Shown: positions 29,505 to 48,995 of the stretch, piece by piece
Layout: every line of letters starts with the position of its first letter
Numbering within the stretch: the stretch's first letter is position 1
Virus record (IMG/VR): IMGVR_UViG_3300042466_000580
Location: 1 to 60,113 of that record
DNA: 60,113 nt
From: a virus
Reading direction: 5' to 3' (one strand)
Notes under the pieces: generated by a model
Told to the model about the DNA's origin: nothing
Seen by the model: the letters and a program-made list of their open reading frames with translations, nothing else
Databases searched by the model: none
Program-made: the position numbers and the translations under genes

Positions 29505-30046
29505 CTGGTTTCTGGCAGGGAGGGGTGTAATCCAGTTCTGGGATGGGGAAAAAGTCCGGGGGGGGAACTAACAGATAGGTGCGGGGGCGCGGGGGGGCTC
29601 GGGGGCCGCACACGCGATCACACGCCCGCGTTTCTTCGCCCGTGCGGGGATAGCCGCGAGCCTCCGCAAGCCCGCAGAACCGCAGCCACGGGCCTTGGCG
29701 GGCATTCCAGCGGGCGGGCGCGAGGGACCGCAGGGGAATCGTTGCCCCGTGGAACACTGTGGCAAGTTTTCGGCAGATTACACCCCTTTCGGCTGACTAT
29801 CATCACCACCCCGATCATCATGCCCATCATTGTCGGCATGGTTTTCTGCCCGGTATCTGGCATGGTTTGGCTGGTATCGGCCAGACCATGATCGGAATCG
29901 GCCATCGTGCTTGGGTGCCTGCGCGGTGCTTTCCTGGGCTTGCCCGTGCGGTTCCTCATGGGCCTGTGCGGTGTCTTCCCCGGTTGGGTGTGCGGTGTCT
30001 TTCGTGCCCTCTCGCGTGCGCTGTCTTCGTGTGTGTGTGCGCCTGG
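29505..30046 (+). other. 540-bp non-coding leader region
   Basis: No convincing gene. The first part has homopurine G runs (29553-29600) and very GC-rich inverted segments. The part at about 29917-30040 is a degenerate tandem array in which GTGCGSTGTCTTYC-like units recur every 20-27 bases. Reading frames through it are low-complexity shadows. It may be a long 5' leader or an origin/regulatory region, as it lies just upstream of the first GGA-hairpin module. Confidence 0.35.
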
Positions 30047-30104
30047 AATCTCCGGAGGAGATTTCGCCCTGTTGGTTGGTGTCGGCAATCGACCACTCCG
30101 GTCG
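30047..30104 (+). ncRNA. GGA-hairpin module 1
   Basis: AATCTCC-GGA-GGAGATT (30047-30063) is a perfect 7-bp stem with a GGA triloop, followed by TCGCCCTGTTGGTTGG and then a second hairpin CGACC-ACTCC-GGTCG (30090-30104). It lies 31 bases upstream of the next start codon. No U-tract is seen, unlike modules 2, 5, 6 and 7. Confidence 0.6.
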
Positions 30105-30134
30105 GTGCGGCAACCACAATCGGGGAGCGATGCA

Positions 30135-30491: not shown

Positions 30492-30530
30492 ACTCCACGG
30501 AGTGGAGTTCGCCCTGTTGGTTGGCATCAC
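30492..30530 (+). ncRNA. GGA-hairpin module 2
   Basis: ACTCCAC-GGA-GTGGAGT (30492-30508), then TCGCCCTGTTGGTTGG. It begins 12 bases after the preceding stop and is followed 30 bases later by an intrinsic terminator. Confidence 0.65.
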
Positions 30531-30559
30531 CCCGAATTGGCCGATGGGGTTACTCGGCT

Positions 30560-30600
30560 CCCCCGGTGGATCACGTTGATTCACCGGGGGTTTTCTTTTC
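30560..30600 (+). terminator. intrinsic terminator/attenuator after module 2
   Basis: CCCCCGGTG ... CACCGGGGG is a perfect 9-bp stem with TTTTCTTTTC. It ends only 20 bases before the next ATG, leaving no room for a new promoter, so the downstream gene needs read-through. Confidence 0.8.
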
Positions 30601-30620: not shown

Positions 30621-30860
30621 ATGTACCACGACATCATCACTGACGATCAGGACATCATCGGCACGGTCGAAATCTTCAAGTTCGACGGTGTGCGGGTTTG
30701 CGAGGGCGATTGCTGGGCTGACGAAGACGGCGAAACCCTCCCCGCCGGTTGGTACTGGTGGACCTGCGTCCCCGGTTGCCTGCCCGATTCTGACCCATTC
30801 GGCCCCTTCGCCACGAAGACGAAAGCAATGGACGCCGCGGAGCGTTCCTATCTGGACTGA
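30621..30860 (+). CDS. small acidic Trp-rich protein
   Basis: 79 residues from the ATG at 30621 (AAAGGG upstream). It contains WADEDGETLPAGWYWWTCVP, then DPFGPFATKTKAMDAAE; the 'GPF-T---A--A' ending is frequent in small phage proteins. Strongly acidic. No function known. Expression is preceded by the GGA module and terminator. Confidence 0.55.
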   Translation: MYHDIITDDQDIIGTVEIFKFDGVRVCEGDCWADEDGETLPAGWYWWTCVPGCLPDSDPFGPFATKTKAMDAAERSYLD

Positions 30861-30870
30861 CGCCCGCATG

Positions 30871-30955
30871 ACTCTCCGGAGGAGAGTTCACCCTGTTGGA
30901 TGGTGGCGGTTGGCTGACGGAAGCCTTTCCCCGGTTCGACTCCGGGGCACCGCAC
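30871..30955 (+). ncRNA. GGA-hairpin module 3 with tRNA T-arm-like domain
   Basis: ACTCTCC-GGA-GGAGAGT (30871-30887), then TCACCCTGTTGGATGG, in which CACC and GGTG can pair around a TTGG-containing loop like a tRNA D-arm. Next come GCGGT, a small hairpin GGCT-GACGGA-AGCC, a T-arm hairpin CCCGG-TTCGACT-CCGGG (30930-30946), and ACCGC closing with GCGGT. No terminator U-tract. No full cloverleaf or anticodon loop can be drawn. Confidence 0.6.
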
Positions 30956-30991
30956 TGGTTACGGGTTCGATTACACACTGAGGGCACCATC

Positions 30992-31297
30992 ATGGGCAAA
31001 ATCACGCTTGATACCGACGTTTGCGGCGGGGCTTACTGCCTCATCGTCAATGACGATGGTTCGGACATTCTCATTCAGTCCGATTGGGACTTGCCAGGGG
31101 TTGCTTCCACGTTTGGGTGGAGCGTTCGGGATGTGAAAACGCCGGGACGGGACTGCGACCACCACGGGACTGACGGCACGGTGGATTGCCCAGAGTGCGG
31201 GCTGAAAGCCGGGACATTCATCAGCGAAGCTGGCGACTGGATCAACAGTAACGACGGTGCGTCCGTTGATGACCCGGGCTATTTCGATGGCGAGTAA
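30992..31297 (+). CDS. small His/Cys-containing protein
   Basis: 101 residues from the ATG at 30992. Beta-rich N terminus (GAYCLIVNDDGSDILIQSDW), then a possible metal site (RDCDHHGTDGTVDCPECG) and an acidic C terminus. The pattern 'C-H--...C--CG' suggests a zinc ribbon. Function unknown. Confidence 0.55.
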   Translation: MGKITLDTDVCGGAYCLIVNDDGSDILIQSDWDLPGVASTFGWSVRDVKTPGRDCDHHGTDGTVDCPECGLKAGTFISEAGDWINSNDGASVDDPGYFDGE

Positions 31298-31307
31298 CCA
31301 AGCCGAA

Positions 31308-31340
31308 ACCGGGGAAACCCGGTCTGTCCGTAATGCGGGC
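31308..31340 (+). ncRNA. two-hairpin element, copy 1
   Basis: ACCGGG-GAAA-CCCGGT (31308-31323), a GNRA-tetraloop hairpin, then CT, then GTCCG-TAATG-CGGGC (31326-31340). Copy 2 at 32283 keeps the first hairpin exactly and the second stem with different, compensating bases. Both begin about 5-11 bases after a stop codon and are followed by CACTGA and a CACACA-rich spacer. Confidence 0.55.
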
Positions 31341-31376
31341 ACTGAAGATGGCTACACACACACAAGGGGTATCACA

Positions 31377-31784
31377 ATGGCTGAAACGCTGACGATTGGC
31401 GACGTTACCATCACGGTCTGCGGGCAGGATCGGGATTACGAGGGCCGCACTTGCTACGAGGTGTCGATTGCCTTCCCAGAGGGCTATTCCTACACCGACA
31501 AGCAGGGGGAAACGCAGTTTATCGACCGGGGTTTTATTCACCGGGAACGTGACCTGCGATCTGGCTGCCAAGGCGGGACTGAGCGGGAGGGGATGGAAAG
31601 CCTGCTTTCCTTCCTGACGGCGGCGGCGGAAGCCTACCGCTACACCATGCGGACGGGCCGCGAGAGCGACAACAGCGACCTTTTCCCGGCCTTCATCGTG
31701 GAATGGGCACACCAAAACGACAGCGAAATTCAGTCTGTCCAGTGCATGTACGAGTTCGACCGCTCGGGTGAAAGCCTCGCGTAA
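31377..31784 (+). CDS. early protein of unknown function
   Basis: 135 residues from the ATG at 31377 (AAGGGG 7 bases upstream). Mixed alpha/beta (TIGDVTITVCGQDRDYEG; ESLLSFLTAAAEAYRYTM; FPAFIVEWAHQNDSEIQSVQ). The stop codon overlaps the stem of GGA module 4. No motif recognised. Confidence 0.55.
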   Translation: MAETLTIGDVTITVCGQDRDYEGRTCYEVSIAFPEGYSYTDKQGETQFIDRGFIHRERDLRSGCQGGTEREGMESLLSFLTAAAEAYRYTMRTGRESDNSDLFPAFIVEWAHQNDSEIQSVQCMYEFDRSGESLA

Positions 31785-31863
31785 TCAACGGAGTTGATTT
31801 CACCCTGTTGGATGGCAGCGACGTTGGTTGACCGCAAAGTGGGTTCGATTCCCACTTGTCGCT
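31783..31863 (+). ncRNA. GGA-hairpin module 4 with tRNA T-arm-like domain
   Basis: AATCAAC-GGA-GTTGATT (31783-31799) overlaps the preceding TAA, then TCACCCTGTTGGATGG, then GCGAC ... a T-arm GTGGG-TTCGATT-CCCAC (31839-31855) ... GTCGC. Compared with module 3 both outer and inner stems differ but still pair, while the TTCGAYT loop is kept. Not a complete tRNA. Confidence 0.6.
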
Positions 31864-31897
31864 CTGGTTCGATTGTTCACACCCTTGGAGAGCGACC

Positions 31898-32278
31898 ATG
31901 ACAAAGCGAGAAGAAATCGACGCGGTGAAAGCGTTCGTTGCCAGCCTGCCCCGGGATTCCTATGCCCGGGATGCACTGGAGCCGTTCCTGATGGAGTTTG
32001 AGAAGGGTGTCTATGCGGACTACGTTCCGACCGTTCACGACTCATGGCGGCACCGCCGGGAGGCTGACGAGGAAGCCGGTCAAGCGAGGAAGGTGCTGGC
32101 TGCGGTCAAGGAAGAAATCAAGCAGGCCAAAGCACGACTGCGTAATTGCTGCGTCGGCATGGGCACCCTGCTCGACCGGGCGAAGCAACTTCAGCACTCC
32201 ATCGACAACACGGCGGAAACCCTGAAGGGGCTGCACGGTGCGGCGGATGCACTCAACGAACGGATCGCCAGCATATAG
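31898..32278 (+). CDS. early coiled-coil protein
   Basis: 126 residues from the ATG at 31898 (GGAGA upstream). A helical N-terminal domain (REEIDAVKAFVASLPRDSYA) is followed by a long heptad-rich coiled coil (ARKVLAAVKEEIKQAKARLR; LLDRAKQLQHSIDNTAETLK). No catalytic motif. Possibly an adaptor or inhibitor of a host protein; this is inference from shape only. Confidence 0.55.
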   Translation: MTKREEIDAVKAFVASLPRDSYARDALEPFLMEFEKGVYADYVPTVHDSWRHRREADEEAGQARKVLAAVKEEIKQAKARLRNCCVGMGTLLDRAKQLQHSIDNTAETLKGLHGAADALNERIASI

Positions 32279-32282
32279 CGAA

Positions 32283-32315
32283 ACCGGGGAAACCCGGTCT
32301 GTGGGTGTGACCCAC
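32283..32315 (+). ncRNA. two-hairpin element, copy 2
   Basis: ACCGGG-GAAA-CCCGGT (32283-32298), CT, then GTGGGT-GTG-ACCCAC (32301-32315). Same spacing and layout as copy 1, with a covarying second stem. It lies 31 bases before the next ATG. Confidence 0.55.
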
Positions 32316-32345
32316 ACTGATGAGCTACACACAAAAGGATCAACC

Positions 32346-32738
32346 ATGAAATTCGACCGGAAATTCGCCCAGTTTGTATGCGTTGGGGACACGATCAAGG
32401 CAGACGTTACTGACAAGTTGCAACTCGTTGCCACTCTCGTCTTCGACAGCGACTGCGACCCGCAAAACGAGGGCTGGTATGACGAGCCAGACGTTGAGCG
32501 GTGGAAGAATGACGAGTGGCATTTCGTGGGGGTTGTGTTGTCCGTTCAATCGCACGACGGCACGATCAAGAGGAACCTCGGCTCCCTCTGGGGAAACGAG
32601 GCCAACCTCAGGGACAATAACGACCACCTGACAGACGTTGCCAATGAGTTGATTGACGAGCGGGAAATCGTGGCCGCACTGCGGGAGATTTACGAGCCCG
32701 TAACCCGGGCGATTAAGACTCTCACACACACAGCCTAA
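32346..32738 (+). CDS. early protein of unknown function
   Basis: 130 residues from the ATG at 32346 (AAAAGGA upstream). Acidic, beta-rich first half (FVCVGDTIKADVTDKLQLVA; VGVVLSVQSHDGTIKRNLGS), helical end (ANELIDEREIVAALREIYEP). The stop lies inside the stem of GGA module 5, so ribosomes finishing this gene would disturb that hairpin. Confidence 0.55.
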   Translation: MKFDRKFAQFVCVGDTIKADVTDKLQLVATLVFDSDCDPQNEGWYDEPDVERWKNDEWHFVGVVLSVQSHDGTIKRNLGSLWGNEANLRDNNDHLTDVANELIDEREIVAALREIYEPVTRAIKTLTHTA

Positions 32739-32766
32739 CGGAGTTAGGCACGACCCTCTGGTTGGT
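32733..32766 (+). ncRNA. GGA-hairpin module 5
   Basis: GCCTAAC-GGA-GTTAGGC (32733-32749) with the stop codon in its left arm, then ACGACCCTCTGGTTGG, a diverged version of the conserved tail. Followed by TTGGATGACGG and a terminator. Confidence 0.6.
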
Positions 32767-32781
32767 ATCGGTTGGATGACG

Positions 32782-32813
32782 GCCCCGGCAATTTCGCCGG
32801 GGCTTTTCTTTTT
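32782..32813 (+). terminator. intrinsic terminator/attenuator after module 5
   Basis: GCCCCGGC-AATTTC-GCCGGGGC, a perfect 8-bp stem, with TTTTCTTTTT. The next ATG is 14 bases on, so downstream expression requires read-through. Confidence 0.85.
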
Positions 32814-32826
32814 CACGGGGCACACC

Positions 32827-33105
32827 ATGCAAACGCAATGGGAATGGACACGGGTCAACAACGACACGAACGGCAATGGCCGGTTCGTCTGCCACTTCCT
32901 GCCACTGGTGCGGGACATGGCTGGCAAGGGATGGGGCACCAACAGCTTGTACAAGCTGGCCTGCAAGCGGGCCAACAAGCTGGGCGGTCGCAAGTACCAC
33001 ACGAAATCGTTCGGTGGTGGGGTGGTTTTCCAAGCGTATTCCAGCACGTTGCCGGACTTGGAGCGACGGATTCTTGAACTGCAAACCGAAGGGGGTGACG
33101 CATGA
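32827..33105 (+). CDS. small basic early protein
   Basis: 92 residues from the ATG at 32827. Reads WEWTRVNNDTNGNGRFVCHF, then YKLACKRANKLGGRKYHTKS and VFQAYSSTLPDLERRILELQ. Mixed fold with basic middle. It is coupled to the next gene (ATGA overlap). Function unknown. Confidence 0.55.
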   Translation: MQTQWEWTRVNNDTNGNGRFVCHFLPLVRDMAGKGWGTNSLYKLACKRANKLGGRKYHTKSFGGGVVFQAYSSTLPDLERRILELQTEGGDA

Positions 33106-33608
33106 GCAGCATGGCATATGACGAACTGACCGAAATCGCCGGGGAGTATGGGCTGACACTCACGTTTGAGTTCATGCCACAGGTCTTCCCCGAAGACACC
33201 AAGTCCACGGACATGAGCATGAAATGGCTGGTGACTGTGCGGCATCGGGGCAACCCGTTGCTGGCCACCACCTACACCCAAGGGGTGGCTCACTGCCCGT
33301 CCTATTCGGGCGTCAAGTGGGGACGGGGCCTGACCGTTGCCCAGCTTGAGAACCTGCGGCGTGACTGTGCCAGCCCGCAGCCCAAGGGTGGGCCGAAGGA
33401 ACCGCTGACCGCTCTGTGGTGCATCGCTTCCGACTGCCAGACGGTGATGGACGGTGGATCGTTTGAGGGATGGGCCCGTGAGCTTGGCTATGACACGGAC
33501 TCCCGCAAGGCGGAAGGCATCTATGACGAGTGCGTTCGCCAGTACCTGAAGCTGAAGCAGGCCATCGGTGACGAGGGCATCCTGACTCTGGCTGCGGTCG
33601 AACTGTGA
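33102..33608 (+). CDS. conserved phage protein (GYDxDSRKA type)
   Basis: 168 residues. The C-terminal half (ALWCIASDCQTVMDGGSFEG, then WARELGYDTDSRKAEGIYDE, CVRQYLKL) matches a pattern I recall from many uncharacterised phage proteins. The N-terminal half is beta-rich (KWLVTVRHRGNPLLATTYTQ). ATGA overlap with the upstream gene. Function unknown. Confidence 0.65.
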   Translation: MSSMAYDELTEIAGEYGLTLTFEFMPQVFPEDTKSTDMSMKWLVTVRHRGNPLLATTYTQGVAHCPSYSGVKWGRGLTVAQLENLRRDCASPQPKGGPKEPLTALWCIASDCQTVMDGGSFEGWARELGYDTDSRKAEGIYDECVRQYLKLKQAIGDEGILTLAAVEL

Positions 33609-33622
33609 CGGCACCCTGCCAC

Positions 33623-33645
33623 CCCCTCTGTTCAGAGCAGAGGGG
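33623..33645 (+). ncRNA. intergenic hairpin of a third type
   Basis: CCCCTCTG-TTCAGAG-CAGAGGGG, an 8-bp stem between two genes, 15 bases after a stop codon and 46 bases before the next start. No U-tract follows. It takes the position that GGA modules occupy elsewhere. Confidence 0.4.
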
Positions 33646-33690
33646 AGAGTTGGGGATCGTTTGAGTTACACACACGAAAGGAAACGCACG

Positions 33691-33870
33691 ATGATTCTCG
33701 GGAAAAGCAGTGAACTGCGGAACTACAGGGGCTTTGTTTATGACGGCGGGCACGGCGGGCCGTATTGGATTGTCGGCTGCTTGTCGGCGGGCACGTTCAG
33801 CAACCTCGCTGACCTTCGCCGGTACGTTGACGAGAACCTTTGGGTCTGCCCAAGAAATGCTGGCGGCTGA
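33691..33870 (+). CDS. 59-residue early protein
   Basis: ATG at 33691 with AAAGGA upstream. Short, Gly/Tyr-rich (NYRGFVYDGGHGGPYWIVGC) with a helical end (LADLRRYVDENLWVCP). It resembles a small beta-hairpin plus helix protein. No family recognised. Confidence 0.5.
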   Translation: MILGKSSELRNYRGFVYDGGHGGPYWIVGCLSAGTFSNLADLRRYVDENLWVCPRNAGG

Positions 33871-34470: not shown

Positions 34471-34476
34471 CACACG

Positions 34477-34515
34477 ACTGTTCGGAGAACAGTTCACCCT
34501 GTTGGTTGGTATCGA
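34477..34515 (+). ncRNA. GGA-hairpin module 6
   Basis: ACTGTTC-GGA-GAACAGT (34477-34493) then TCACCCTGTTGGTTGG. The hairpin is identical to module 7. It is followed without gap by a terminator stem. Confidence 0.65.
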
Positions 34516-34548
34516 CCCTCGGCAATTCCGCCGGGGGTTTTTCTTTTT
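34516..34548 (+). terminator. intrinsic terminator/attenuator after module 6
   Basis: CCCTCGGC-AATTCC-GCCGGGGG (8 bp, one G-U pair) with TTTTTCTTTTT; the next ATG is 18 bases on. Confidence 0.85.
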
Positions 34549-34565
34549 CACAAAGGAACTTTGAC

Positions 34566-35003: not shown

Positions 35004-35495
35004 ATGGCAGCGTTAGACCCAAGGCCGGTGAAGGAAAGGATTCTGTCCAGCATCTCCAAGCCTGACGGGGAGGGCGGGTGCTGGGTTTGGCAGGGAGTAA
35101 CACTTCCCCGTGGGTACGGTCAGATCAGCGTCCACTCTCAAAGGCATTACGCCCATCGACTGTCTTACGAGACTTTTGTTGGGCCTATCCCTGACGGCTT
35201 GGACATCATGCACCTGTGCGACAACCCGTCTTGCGTCAACCCGGCTCATCTGACACCGGGTACACGCAAGAGAAACATGAATGACGCATCTTTGAAGGGA
35301 CGAGTCCCGCATGGGGAGAGGCACTGGGGTGCAAAGCTGACAGAAGACAAAGCGCGTGAGTTGATTGCGGTCAGGGATCGGGACGGTCTGTCTTACAGAA
35401 ATCTGGCCAAGCTGTTTGGCATCAGCACGATGCAGGCTTGCCGGATATGCACGGGAAAGAGGTGGGCTGGTCTTTCAAGAAAGGAGGACGAGTAA
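35004..35495 (+). CDS. HNH homing-type endonuclease
   Basis: 163 residues (AAGGAG upstream). CWVWQGVTLPRGYGQI, AHRLSYETFVGPIPDGLD and MHLCDNPSCVNPAHLTPGT form the HNH_3-type nuclease core. The C terminus has a KLTEDKARELIAVRD segment and an HTH-like LAKLFGISTMQACRICTG for DNA recognition. Related to the late-region copy at 14102-14578. Probably a mobile free-standing homing endonuclease. Confidence 0.8.
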   Translation: MAALDPRPVKERILSSISKPDGEGGCWVWQGVTLPRGYGQISVHSQRHYAHRLSYETFVGPIPDGLDIMHLCDNPSCVNPAHLTPGTRKRNMNDASLKGRVPHGERHWGAKLTEDKARELIAVRDRDGLSYRNLAKLFGISTMQACRICTGKRWAGLSRKEDE

Positions 35496-36725: not shown

Positions 36726-36764
36726 ACTGTTCGGAGAACAGTTCGCCCTGTTGGTTAGTAGCAA
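36726..36764 (+). ncRNA. GGA-hairpin module 7
   Basis: ACTGTTC-GGA-GAACAGT (36726-36742), then TCGCCCTGTTGGTTAG. The hairpin is identical to module 6, while the flanks differ. Confidence 0.65.
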
Positions 36765-36775
36765 CGATGGACTTG

Positions 36776-36813
36776 GCCCCGGCAGCACTTCGCTGTCCGG
36801 GGCTTTTTGTTTT
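36776..36813 (+). terminator. intrinsic terminator/attenuator after module 7
   Basis: GCCCCGG-CAGC ... GCTG-T-CCGGGGC, about 11 bp with one bulge around ACTTC, followed by TTTTTGTTTT. The next ATG is 21 bases on. Confidence 0.85.
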
Positions 36814-48032: not shown

Positions 48033-48995
48033 CTATTCGACCTGTGAAAAAACCCGATCCCCAAAACCAGGCATGGTCAATTCATTAACCTTGCCGTAAC
48101 CGTCCTCCATCCAATCGCCGGTTGCCCTGCGACGAGCGATGTCAGTGAGAAGCTCATCCAGCCTGCGGCGGGCCCAGTCCATGTAGGAGGGCGGCAGGGT
48201 GATGACCTGGGTCAGATATGGGGCGACGGTTTGCGTCACCACAAAGTGCATGGGGGGCTCGGCCAACCCGCTGACCACTGCCCCCTGTTCGTAGAGGGCC
48301 GCACTGATTCCGTACCCGTAAGTCCTTACGGATCGGGCCCAGTCCTTGAGAATGTTCTTCTCAGAGGTGGTCTTGTAGTCCCCCAACTGTCCGCTGTTGC
48401 AGATGAAGTCAGGGCGGCAGCGGGCCATGACCCCAGCCGTGGACTCCCACCGGATTGAGGCTTCCCTATGGAGGATGTCTTCCTCAAGCTCGACTGCCTT
48501 GGGGTTCAGGCCAAAGCGGTCCTGCATCTTCCCAAGAATTTCCCCCATCTCGGGGGACAGGATGATCGCGTCCGAAGCTAGGGTGGCAAGCCACTCCTTG
48601 GTTGCCTTTTTTGTGGACAACCCCCCACTTGCGGTACAATGTTCTTCAGGGGCAGTGACCGCCCGCTCCGAGAACTGGTCGTAACCAATCTCCCTGAGCG
48701 TGTGCCAAGCACTTCCTAGCTGGAGGGCTGCCGACTTGGAGTCGGAACCCCACCCCATCTCCACGTTGTCATGGAAGACCGTGGCTGACTCTGCCAGACG
48801 AATCTGGGTGGAGCCAAGGTGAACCAGATCACCGTGATAGGTGGTGATCGGCTCGTCATAGAGAACTGAAAAGCGGGCGACGAGAGTCGAACTCGCAACA
48901 TCTAGCTTGGGAAGATAGTCACCGCCTGAATTGGGGGAAAAGTTTTTGACTTCCCCAAAAGTGGTGCCATCTTCCTCCTTACTGGAGGTAGTCAT
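48033..48995 (-). CDS. RecE-like PD-(D/E)xK exonuclease
   Basis: 320 residues. GSAWHTL near residue 97, then ARCRPDFI (Asp196) and GQLGDYKTTSEKN (Asp206, Lys208) with the later TYGYGISAALYEQG give the layout of the phage exonuclease VIII/DUF3799 group. It would resect double-stranded ends for the ERF annealing protein. The ATG at 48995 shares the tetranucleotide CATG with the start of the divergent integrase. The first about 30 residues also carry the ribosome site of that gene on the other strand. Confidence 0.75.
   Translation of the reverse strand: MTTSSKEEDGTTFGEVKNFSPNSGGDYLPKLDVASSTLVARFSVLYDEPITTYHGDLVHLGSTQIRLAESATVFHDNVEMGWGSDSKSAALQLGSAWHTLREIGYDQFSERAVTAPEEHCTASGGLSTKKATKEWLATLASDAIILSPEMGEILGKMQDRFGLNPKAVELEEDILHREASIRWESTAGVMARCRPDFICNSGQLGDYKTTSEKNILKDWARSVRTYGYGISAALYEQGAVVSGLAEPPMHFVVTQTVAPYLTQVITLPPSYMDWARRRLDELLTDIARRRATGDWMEDGYGKVNELTMPGFGDRVFSQVE

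Follow-up and report, generated by a model that had tools for sequence, protein, structure and literature searches.

Two gene junctions of an uncultured phage carry a predicted RNA element with the shape of a miniature tRNA, composed of an acceptor stem, a D-arm-like hairpin and a T-arm but lacking the anticodon arm, and comparison with related phages strongly supports this fold. We refer to the element as a tRNA-like structure (TLS). On balance, we slightly favor the view that the TLS is a transcript-processing mark that would be cut by host RNase P and/or RNase Z; we infer the cleavage, the enzymes, the host and transcription through the junctions from sequence.

The window, i.e., the whole stretch of DNA that was analyzed, is a 60,113-base uncultured phage record. 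Pfam searches identified a P22-like portal, a terminase large subunit, an ERF recombinase and a phage integrase (48931-49851). The minus strand encodes the structural genes. Small genes form a plus-strand block at about 28.6-39.8 kb, which is taken to represent the early genes and holds the TLSs. Junctions in this block contain a GGA-loop hairpin plus tail (then a terminator or a TLS), a type II hammerhead, or a hairpin designated C3.

Architecture and conservation of the tRNA-like structures

30904-30958, plus strand: TLS of module 3 (TLS-M3), with acceptor, D-like hairpin, T-arm, discriminator N73 = A30954 and then CTGG; 74.3 bits, E 6e-16 (copy built into the covariance model)
31816-31867, plus strand: TLS of module 4 (TLS-M4); 59 bits, E 3e-12 (copy built into the covariance model)

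The acceptor of TLS-M3 is formed by GCGGTT (30906-30911) and CACCGC (30948-30953), with 5 bp and one T-C mismatch. It is followed by the D-like hairpin (30912-30925, GGCT-GACGGA-AGCC) and by a T-stem of 6 bp (CCCCGG, 30929-30934; CCGGGG, 30942-30947), which closes the T-loop TTCGACT (30935-30941). In TLS-M4, A31817 plus GCGAC (31818-31822) is matched by GTCGC (31858-31862) plus T31863, and a T-stem of 7 bp (AAGTGGG, 31837-31843; CCCACTT, 31851-31857) carries the T-loop TTCGATT (31844-31850). CTGG again stands after the acceptor, and the D-arm-like hairpin is weak, with 2-3 bp around GTTGGTTGAC. Both modules share the exact T-loop GTTCGANNC and have N73 and then CTG where CCA would stand. The coaxial T-stem and acceptor comprise exactly 12 positions in TLS-M3 and TLS-M4 alike, as in tRNA. 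The combination typical of tRNA, an acceptor and T-arm stack of 12 bp with the T-loop GTTCRANNC, is therefore present in the TLS, with one mismatch in M3 of the window. No anticodon arm is found: the 14-18 nt between acceptor and T-arm fold into one hairpin.

The original prediction described a T-loop hairpin with an enclosing second stem in modules 3 and 4 and reported neither an anticodon arm nor CCA; inspection of the coordinates agrees on all these points. The second stem (GCGGT/ACCGC and GCGAC/GTCGC) stands as described, but the T-stem has 6 bp in module 3 and 7 bp in module 4, not 5 bp. The D-arm-like hairpin had been misplaced. It was assigned to the conserved tail with a TTGG loop but actually lies within the element, with the loop GACGGA.

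A strict detector matched both TLSs and nothing else in the window (two matches on the plus strand, none on the minus strand). When the window was shuffled 300 times with dinucleotide composition preserved, no match was obtained in 289 shuffles, one in 11 and never two, i.e., about 0.04 per shuffled window, indicating that the hairpins exceed chance. The folding energy of the two single copies is modestly low (z of -1.2 and -2.0), and both have competing folds in wider sequence context. Because of these modest energies, the case for the TLS is based on covariation and conservation and not on energy.

ARAGORN detected no tRNA in the window, Rfam at the gathering score gave no match of any family there, and the best sub-threshold match of the tRNA model over any TLS reached 16.6 bits (G014). 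Permissive Rfam matches in the window, including Plastid-ycf2 over TLS-M4, were considered noise. The terminator scan revealed no intrinsic terminator at 30904-30958 or 31816-31867, where the TLS stems are followed by CTGG and not by a U run.

Close relatives were found via the neighboring proteins and the terminase, namely G014 (L024), G003 (L025), G015 (L026), G004 (L027), G002 (L136) and the fragment G005 (L137). A covariance model built from ten TLS copies detected 18 copies, 12 of them distinct, in seven related phage records, with four in G002; these phages are close kin, and the counts are not independent. Eight of the 18 copies were outside the building alignment. Most of these are identical to included ones, and the G002 copy L136:4461-4511 is distinct. 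Each long record contains 2-4 copies, located at gene junctions of the early block.

The covariation score of the TLS was 0.473 compared to 0.169 in shuffles, none of 500 shuffles reached this value, and slid pairings gave at most 0.173. The joint variation of both arms around a constant loop, first noticed within the window, is thus far clearer once the relatives are added. T-stem pairs are kept in 100% of the copies; the two pairs adjoining the loop are always G-C, with an invariant closing G-C pair. Fully paired acceptors occur in L026, e.g., GCGGTT/AACCGC and ACGGTT/AACCGT, and in most relatives, several copies being of this kind, all 12 of the 12 acceptor and T-stem positions are paired. 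The T-loop is kept as well, with TCCGATT in one copy (L025:1708) as an exception. Together with the constant 12-position helix, these features uphold the earlier description as a reduced tRNA-like structure. The hairpin that replaces the D and anticodon arms varies (GGCTGACGGAAGCC, GTGGTTCGGCCAC, GCTGATCGGCAGC, GGTGATCGGCACC), and a GG in its loop is kept. The D-loops of tRNAs carry G18-G19, and we infer that the GG of the D-like loop docks with the T-loop in the TLS.

Under strict filters, the TLS model had no match in 149 Planctomycetia genomes, indicating that it does not simply recognize tRNAs. Distant relatives (about 53% terminase identity) contained no convincing TLS or hammerhead. Their weak matches to the TLS model (E 0.01-0.09) were treated as chance, and one of them, in G026, overlaps a real tRNA (G026:826-928, 52.3 bits, above the gathering score). 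Pattern scans of IMG/VR DNA for the hairpin plus tail yielded one close relative; 15 other stretches retrieved with a relaxed pattern were classified as chance or unrelated hairpins. A BLAST search of module 3 against phages gave matches with E 0.4, some annotated as tRNA-Arg of Streptomyces phages, which we ascribe to convergence and not homology, and one further match with E 0.1.

Exchange at orthologous junctions

Other junctions of the early block hold the following elements:

31301-31353, plus strand: type II hammerhead, copy 1, between ORFs 30992-31297 and 31377-31784; predicted cut 31324/31325
32276-32327, plus strand: type II hammerhead, copy 2, between ORFs 31898-32278 and 32346-32738; predicted cut 32299/32300
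33606-33665, plus strand: C3 element, a long hairpin with two internal loops, between ORFs 33102-33608 and 33691-33870

Based on their sequence, the first two are predicted type II hammerhead ribozymes that would cleave themselves. Copy 2 has an intact core (CUGAUGA...GAAA...GUC). Copy 1 has one extra U between A9 and stem II, which may impair it; the same insertion is present in the L024 counterpart. A search for the core CUGANGA / GAAA / UH with three stems and stem II open gave 11 matches in four of seven loci and none in L025, and a hammerhead model gave 15 strong matches in six of the TLS-bearing records and none in G003. The stems are compensated among relatives (covariation 0.596 versus 0.127). 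In Rfam, three relatives' copies were matched as Hammerhead_II at 31-32 bits (32.3, 31.1; E 0.009-0.018), below the gathering score of RF02276 (37 bits), and Hammerhead_II was not listed for the window in the permissive search. Further predicted type II hammerheads lie between small genes at L026 3963, 4714, 6817 and 8614 and at L027 4518, 5389, 6400 and 8657, and a copy at G002:31468-31568 has a long insertion in stem III.

Nine copies of C3 could be aligned, with 99.3% of cells paired and a covariation of 0.498 versus 0.232. C3 is located at or just after a stop codon, in the window as well as in the other copies (L024 5963, 8335; L025 2706, 3480; L026 5656; L027 7330; L136 6525, 8780). No Rfam family matched C3 at E up to 1 in L025-L027. 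Its outline resembles the RNase III sites of phage early RNAs, and C3 is possibly such a site or an undescribed ribozyme.

Comparison of orthologous junctions suggests that hammerhead, TLS and C3 behave as alternatives. Between the genes beginning MARHHDS and MAETLTIGD (76% and 84% identical), L024 has a hammerhead and L025 a TLS, the latter placed directly after the stop codon without a GGA hairpin. Between genes 31898-32278 and 32346-32738, the window has a hammerhead, and C3 is found between the homologues in G014 and G002 (42-43% identity over 81 aa, and 64-77%). Between families F5 and F21, G015 has a hammerhead and G002 has C3. Direct replacement of a hammerhead by a TLS was therefore seen at one orthologous junction only, and replacement by C3 at two. 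At the junction that follows family F7, a terminator is found in the window and a TLS in G002. Plain terminators without intermediates at the sites of modules 3 and 4, named beforehand as the observation that would speak against a tRNA mimic, were not what the related phages showed; orthologous junctions hold the same element. Directly after TLS-M3, two close relatives carry different genes (window 30992-31297 versus L024 4828-5052), and the junction elements stay.

If elements substitute for one another at a given junction, they probably serve one function, which here would be cutting RNA, because cutting its own RNA is the only function for which the hammerhead is known. The exchange with the hammerhead in related phages therefore suggests that the tRNA look-alikes serve as cut marks dividing long messages. 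We propose that the TLS is a miniature tRNA mimic marking a cut site in the early polycistronic RNA. It would present to tRNA-end nucleases the 12-position acceptor and T-arm stack, the T-loop, a GG-loop hairpin in the place of the D-arm and an N73-CUG tail. Host RNase P would cut at the 5' end of the TLS and/or RNase Z after N73. The upstream gene would thereby be separated from the downstream gene, and one or both fragments would carry a structured terminus. The self-cleaving type II hammerhead, and probably also the C3 hairpin, would serve this purpose at neighboring junctions. More tentatively, and with somewhat less than even confidence, we extend this proposal to three interchangeable cut marks that punctuate the early RNA: the hammerhead, the tRNA mimic for host nucleases, and C3 as an RNase III site or undescribed ribozyme, with marks being replaced while the junction stays. 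As the phages are close relatives, the swaps could also reflect recombination that moved a junction together with its gene.

Proposed host nucleases, alternative explanations and known systems

Nearly all distinct TLS copies have N73-CTG at the 3' side, and one has N73-TTG. In the sampled tRNA genes of Planctomycetia, CCA is encoded in 0 of 42 and N73-CT is found in 21 of 42 (background 5.5%), and in a wider sample of the phylum CCA is encoded in 27 of 77. Provided that the host call is right, the TLS resembles real tRNA genes of the probable host class in its 3' flank. Planctomycetia are the likely host class, a call that rests on one MAG contig. The terminase was searched against the GTDB collection; a single query returned nothing, and an alignment query returned this Planctomycetia contig as the only cellular relative within the sensitivity of the scan. 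The contig (JAPLNQ010000055.1, L177, 3.2 kb) encodes a 53%-identical terminase and is the only hint of a host; it may be mis-binned.

All 11 sampled Planctomycetia genomes encode an A-type RNase P RNA. The TLS lacks RCCA, the motif that pairs with this RNA. In addition, pairing between N-1 and N73 is possible in 7 of the 12 distinct TLS copies and in 13 of 42 tRNAs of the host class, which may blur the RNase P site. Model substrates consisting of acceptor, T-stem and T-loop are cut by RNase P, with a conserved distance of 12 bp from the T-loop to the 5' end (PMC11143913). The D-loop appears to be dispensable for RNase P, and the T-loop or a similar loop is needed (PMC4919913). Judged by its predicted fold, the TLS has what these studies describe as required, and its T-loop lies 12 bp from the proposed cut end, the placement that we used as a mark of RNase P or RNase Z substrates (after PMC11143913). 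Recognition by tRNA-modifying enzymes, EF-Tu or RNases had been suggested for the element. RNases fit best among these candidates, and nothing specific points to EF-Tu or modification enzymes. Recognition by tRNA enzymes gains in likelihood because the TLS replaces a hammerhead at one orthologous junction and because its 3' end, N73-CTG without CCA, matches the 3' flanks seen in the probable host class, whose sampled tRNA genes encode no CCA.

The position of the TLS between a stop codon and the next start would also suit an element that tunes stability or translation, protecting mRNA ends or shaping the next leader without being cut by tRNA enzymes. The products of hammerhead and C3 would likewise leave stable hairpins at RNA ends, and in module 4 pairing of the acceptor strand GTCGCTC with GAGCGAC could cover the next Shine-Dalgarno sequence. 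However, this pairing is not kept in L025, L026 or L136, and occlusion of the Shine-Dalgarno sequence by TLS-M4, possible in the window, was rejected as not conserved. Moreover, a plain stem would suffice for such a role, leaving the exact T-loop, the 12-position stack and N73-CTG unexplained. We regard this explanation as unlikely.

The persistence of junctions next to changing genes, as after TLS-M3 in the window and L024, fits a scenario in which the junction elements are scars of recombination, i.e., homology patches for gene swapping, in which any function of the RNA would be secondary. Within each genome the tails resemble one another, and an HNH endonuclease gene (HNH_3, 35004-35495), possibly a homing enzyme driving gene exchange, lies among the junction modules. 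Compensatory stem changes with conserved loop or core nucleotides, however, need selection on RNA structure, and we hold it to be improbable that the elements are primarily scars. It is very improbable that the TLS is excised as a decoy or small RNA that would target tRNA-binding proteins or modification enzymes in trans; elbow-like features (the T-loop and the GG in the D-like loop) and several copies per genome would agree with such a role, but the fixed junction position and the hammerhead swap would be unexplained, and CCA and anticodon are absent.

That the TLS is what is left of a tRNA attachment site or of a captured tRNA gene, an origin for which the box-B-like T-arm, the integrase gene and weak tRNA-like matches elsewhere could be adduced, was rejected as hardly credible, since ARAGORN and Rfam at the gathering score detected no tRNA in the window, both arms covary, the 2-4 copies per long record never include a tRNA body, and the integrase is distant. 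An attachment site would be expected to occur once, close to the integrase, with the sequence of a tRNA 3' end, which is not the pattern of the TLS. The weak matches are located at 48872-48925 of the window (minus strand, 12.6 bits; a possible attP near the integrase), at G002:47848-47919 and at G015:55276-55338 (25.1 bits in G015).

The preferred reading, a processing mark cut by tRNA-end nucleases, has parallels in several systems. In mitochondrial polycistronic RNA, tRNA ends define mRNA ends (tRNA punctuation); mitochondria use real tRNA genes for this purpose, whereas the phage marks would be reduced mimics unable to decode. The tRNA-like domain of tmRNA and the YrlA-type Y RNAs are tRNA mimics without a normal anticodon arm. 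These RNAs stand alone, whereas the TLS is embedded between ORFs and has no CCA. Plant virus tRNA-like structures are found at genome 3' ends, usually form via a pseudoknot and have CCA-dependent functions; the TLS likewise is a viral RNA that mimics part of a tRNA, but it is not at a genome 3' end. Some of the plant virus structures are cut by RNase P, which also cuts polycistronic mRNAs; its natural mRNA and phage substrates include T4 gene 32 mRNA, the C4 RNA of P1/P7 and phage M3 RNA (PMC11143913). Like the model substrates AT1 and pMini (PMC11143913), the TLS has an acceptor and T-arm stack with a T-loop, for which the anticodon arm is not needed. Unlike these RNase P substrates, it is dedicated, is repeated at several junctions, carries a D-like hairpin where the D and anticodon arms would be, and ends in N73-CUG and not RCCA. 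HDV-like theta ribozymes beside phage tRNAs are reported as phage RNA elements that link ribozymes and tRNA, and they concern real suppressor tRNAs (PMC10879173); no tRNA genes were found at the junctions described here.

For the clustered type II hammerheads that flank genes in phage-type regions, Perreault et al. (2011, PMC3088659) suggested that they divide long transcripts into mRNAs the length of an operon or a single gene. The block analyzed here has the same ribozyme type, likewise between single genes or short gene blocks. In contrast to the Perreault system, the ribozyme here trades places at equivalent junctions with the TLS, a mark that would depend on an outside enzyme, and with the third hairpin, C3. 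Punctuation by phage hammerheads is already known, as is the cutting of tRNA-like sites in mRNAs by RNase P. In open-access papers, neither the repeated use of a tRNA mimic lacking the anticodon arm at phage gene junctions nor its exchange with a ribozyme was found to be described. If the proposal is correct, this would be natural tRNA punctuation outside organelles, with a mimic near the smallest size known for a tRNA-end nuclease. The purpose of clustered phage hammerheads would be partly answered, since a mark that depends on host enzymes replaces the ribozyme at the same junction and the shared output must then be the cut. The elements would also provide compact natural cutting modules for multi-gene RNAs, and the covariance model could be used to find more.

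Hairpins, tails and terminators

The TLS modules and the terminator modules share a GGA-loop hairpin and a tail:

30870-30888, plus strand: GGA-loop hairpin GACTCTCC-GGA-GGAGAGTT, after the stop codon of ORF 30621-30860
30889-30903, plus strand: conserved single-stranded tail CACCCTGTTGGATGG
31783-31815, plus strand: GGA-loop hairpin AATCAAC-GGA-GTTGATT and tail TCACCCTGTTGGATGG, after ORF 31377-31784
30498-30599, plus strand: module 2, comprising a GGA hairpin, a tail and an intrinsic terminator; in G002, the homologous gene is followed by a TLS
32733-32815, plus strand: GGA hairpin, tail and intrinsic terminator
34476-34550, plus strand: GGA hairpin, tail and intrinsic terminator
36726-36810, plus strand: GGA hairpin, tail and terminator-like hairpin, upstream of a DUF932 gene

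The terminator scan of the plus strand gave hits at 30560, 32781, 34514 and 36788. At other TLS and terminator junctions the GGA-loop hairpin recurs, with compensating changes in its arms. Hairpin plus tail sites are located at 30044-30079, 30492-30524, 30870-30903, 31783-31815, 32733-32755, 34476-34509 and 36726-36758; they precede terminators, TLSs and the first gene and are absent from hammerhead and C3 junctions. At the first junction, upstream of gene 1 (window 30053-30134; L025 498-586; L026 3280-3369), hairpin and tail are followed by a conserved-looking fold, TGTCGGCA-ATCGACC...GGTCGRTG-CGGC, which is neither a terminator nor a TLS. Six core copies of the conserved tail TTCRCCCTGTTGGWTGG are present in the window, where none are expected by chance. 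Tails are largely uniform within a genome and differ between genomes (CCCTGTTGG, GAGCCTCTGG, GGCCCTCTGG, CAGCCCAGTTG), a pattern that might be explained by a phage-specific factor recognizing them, e.g., in antitermination.
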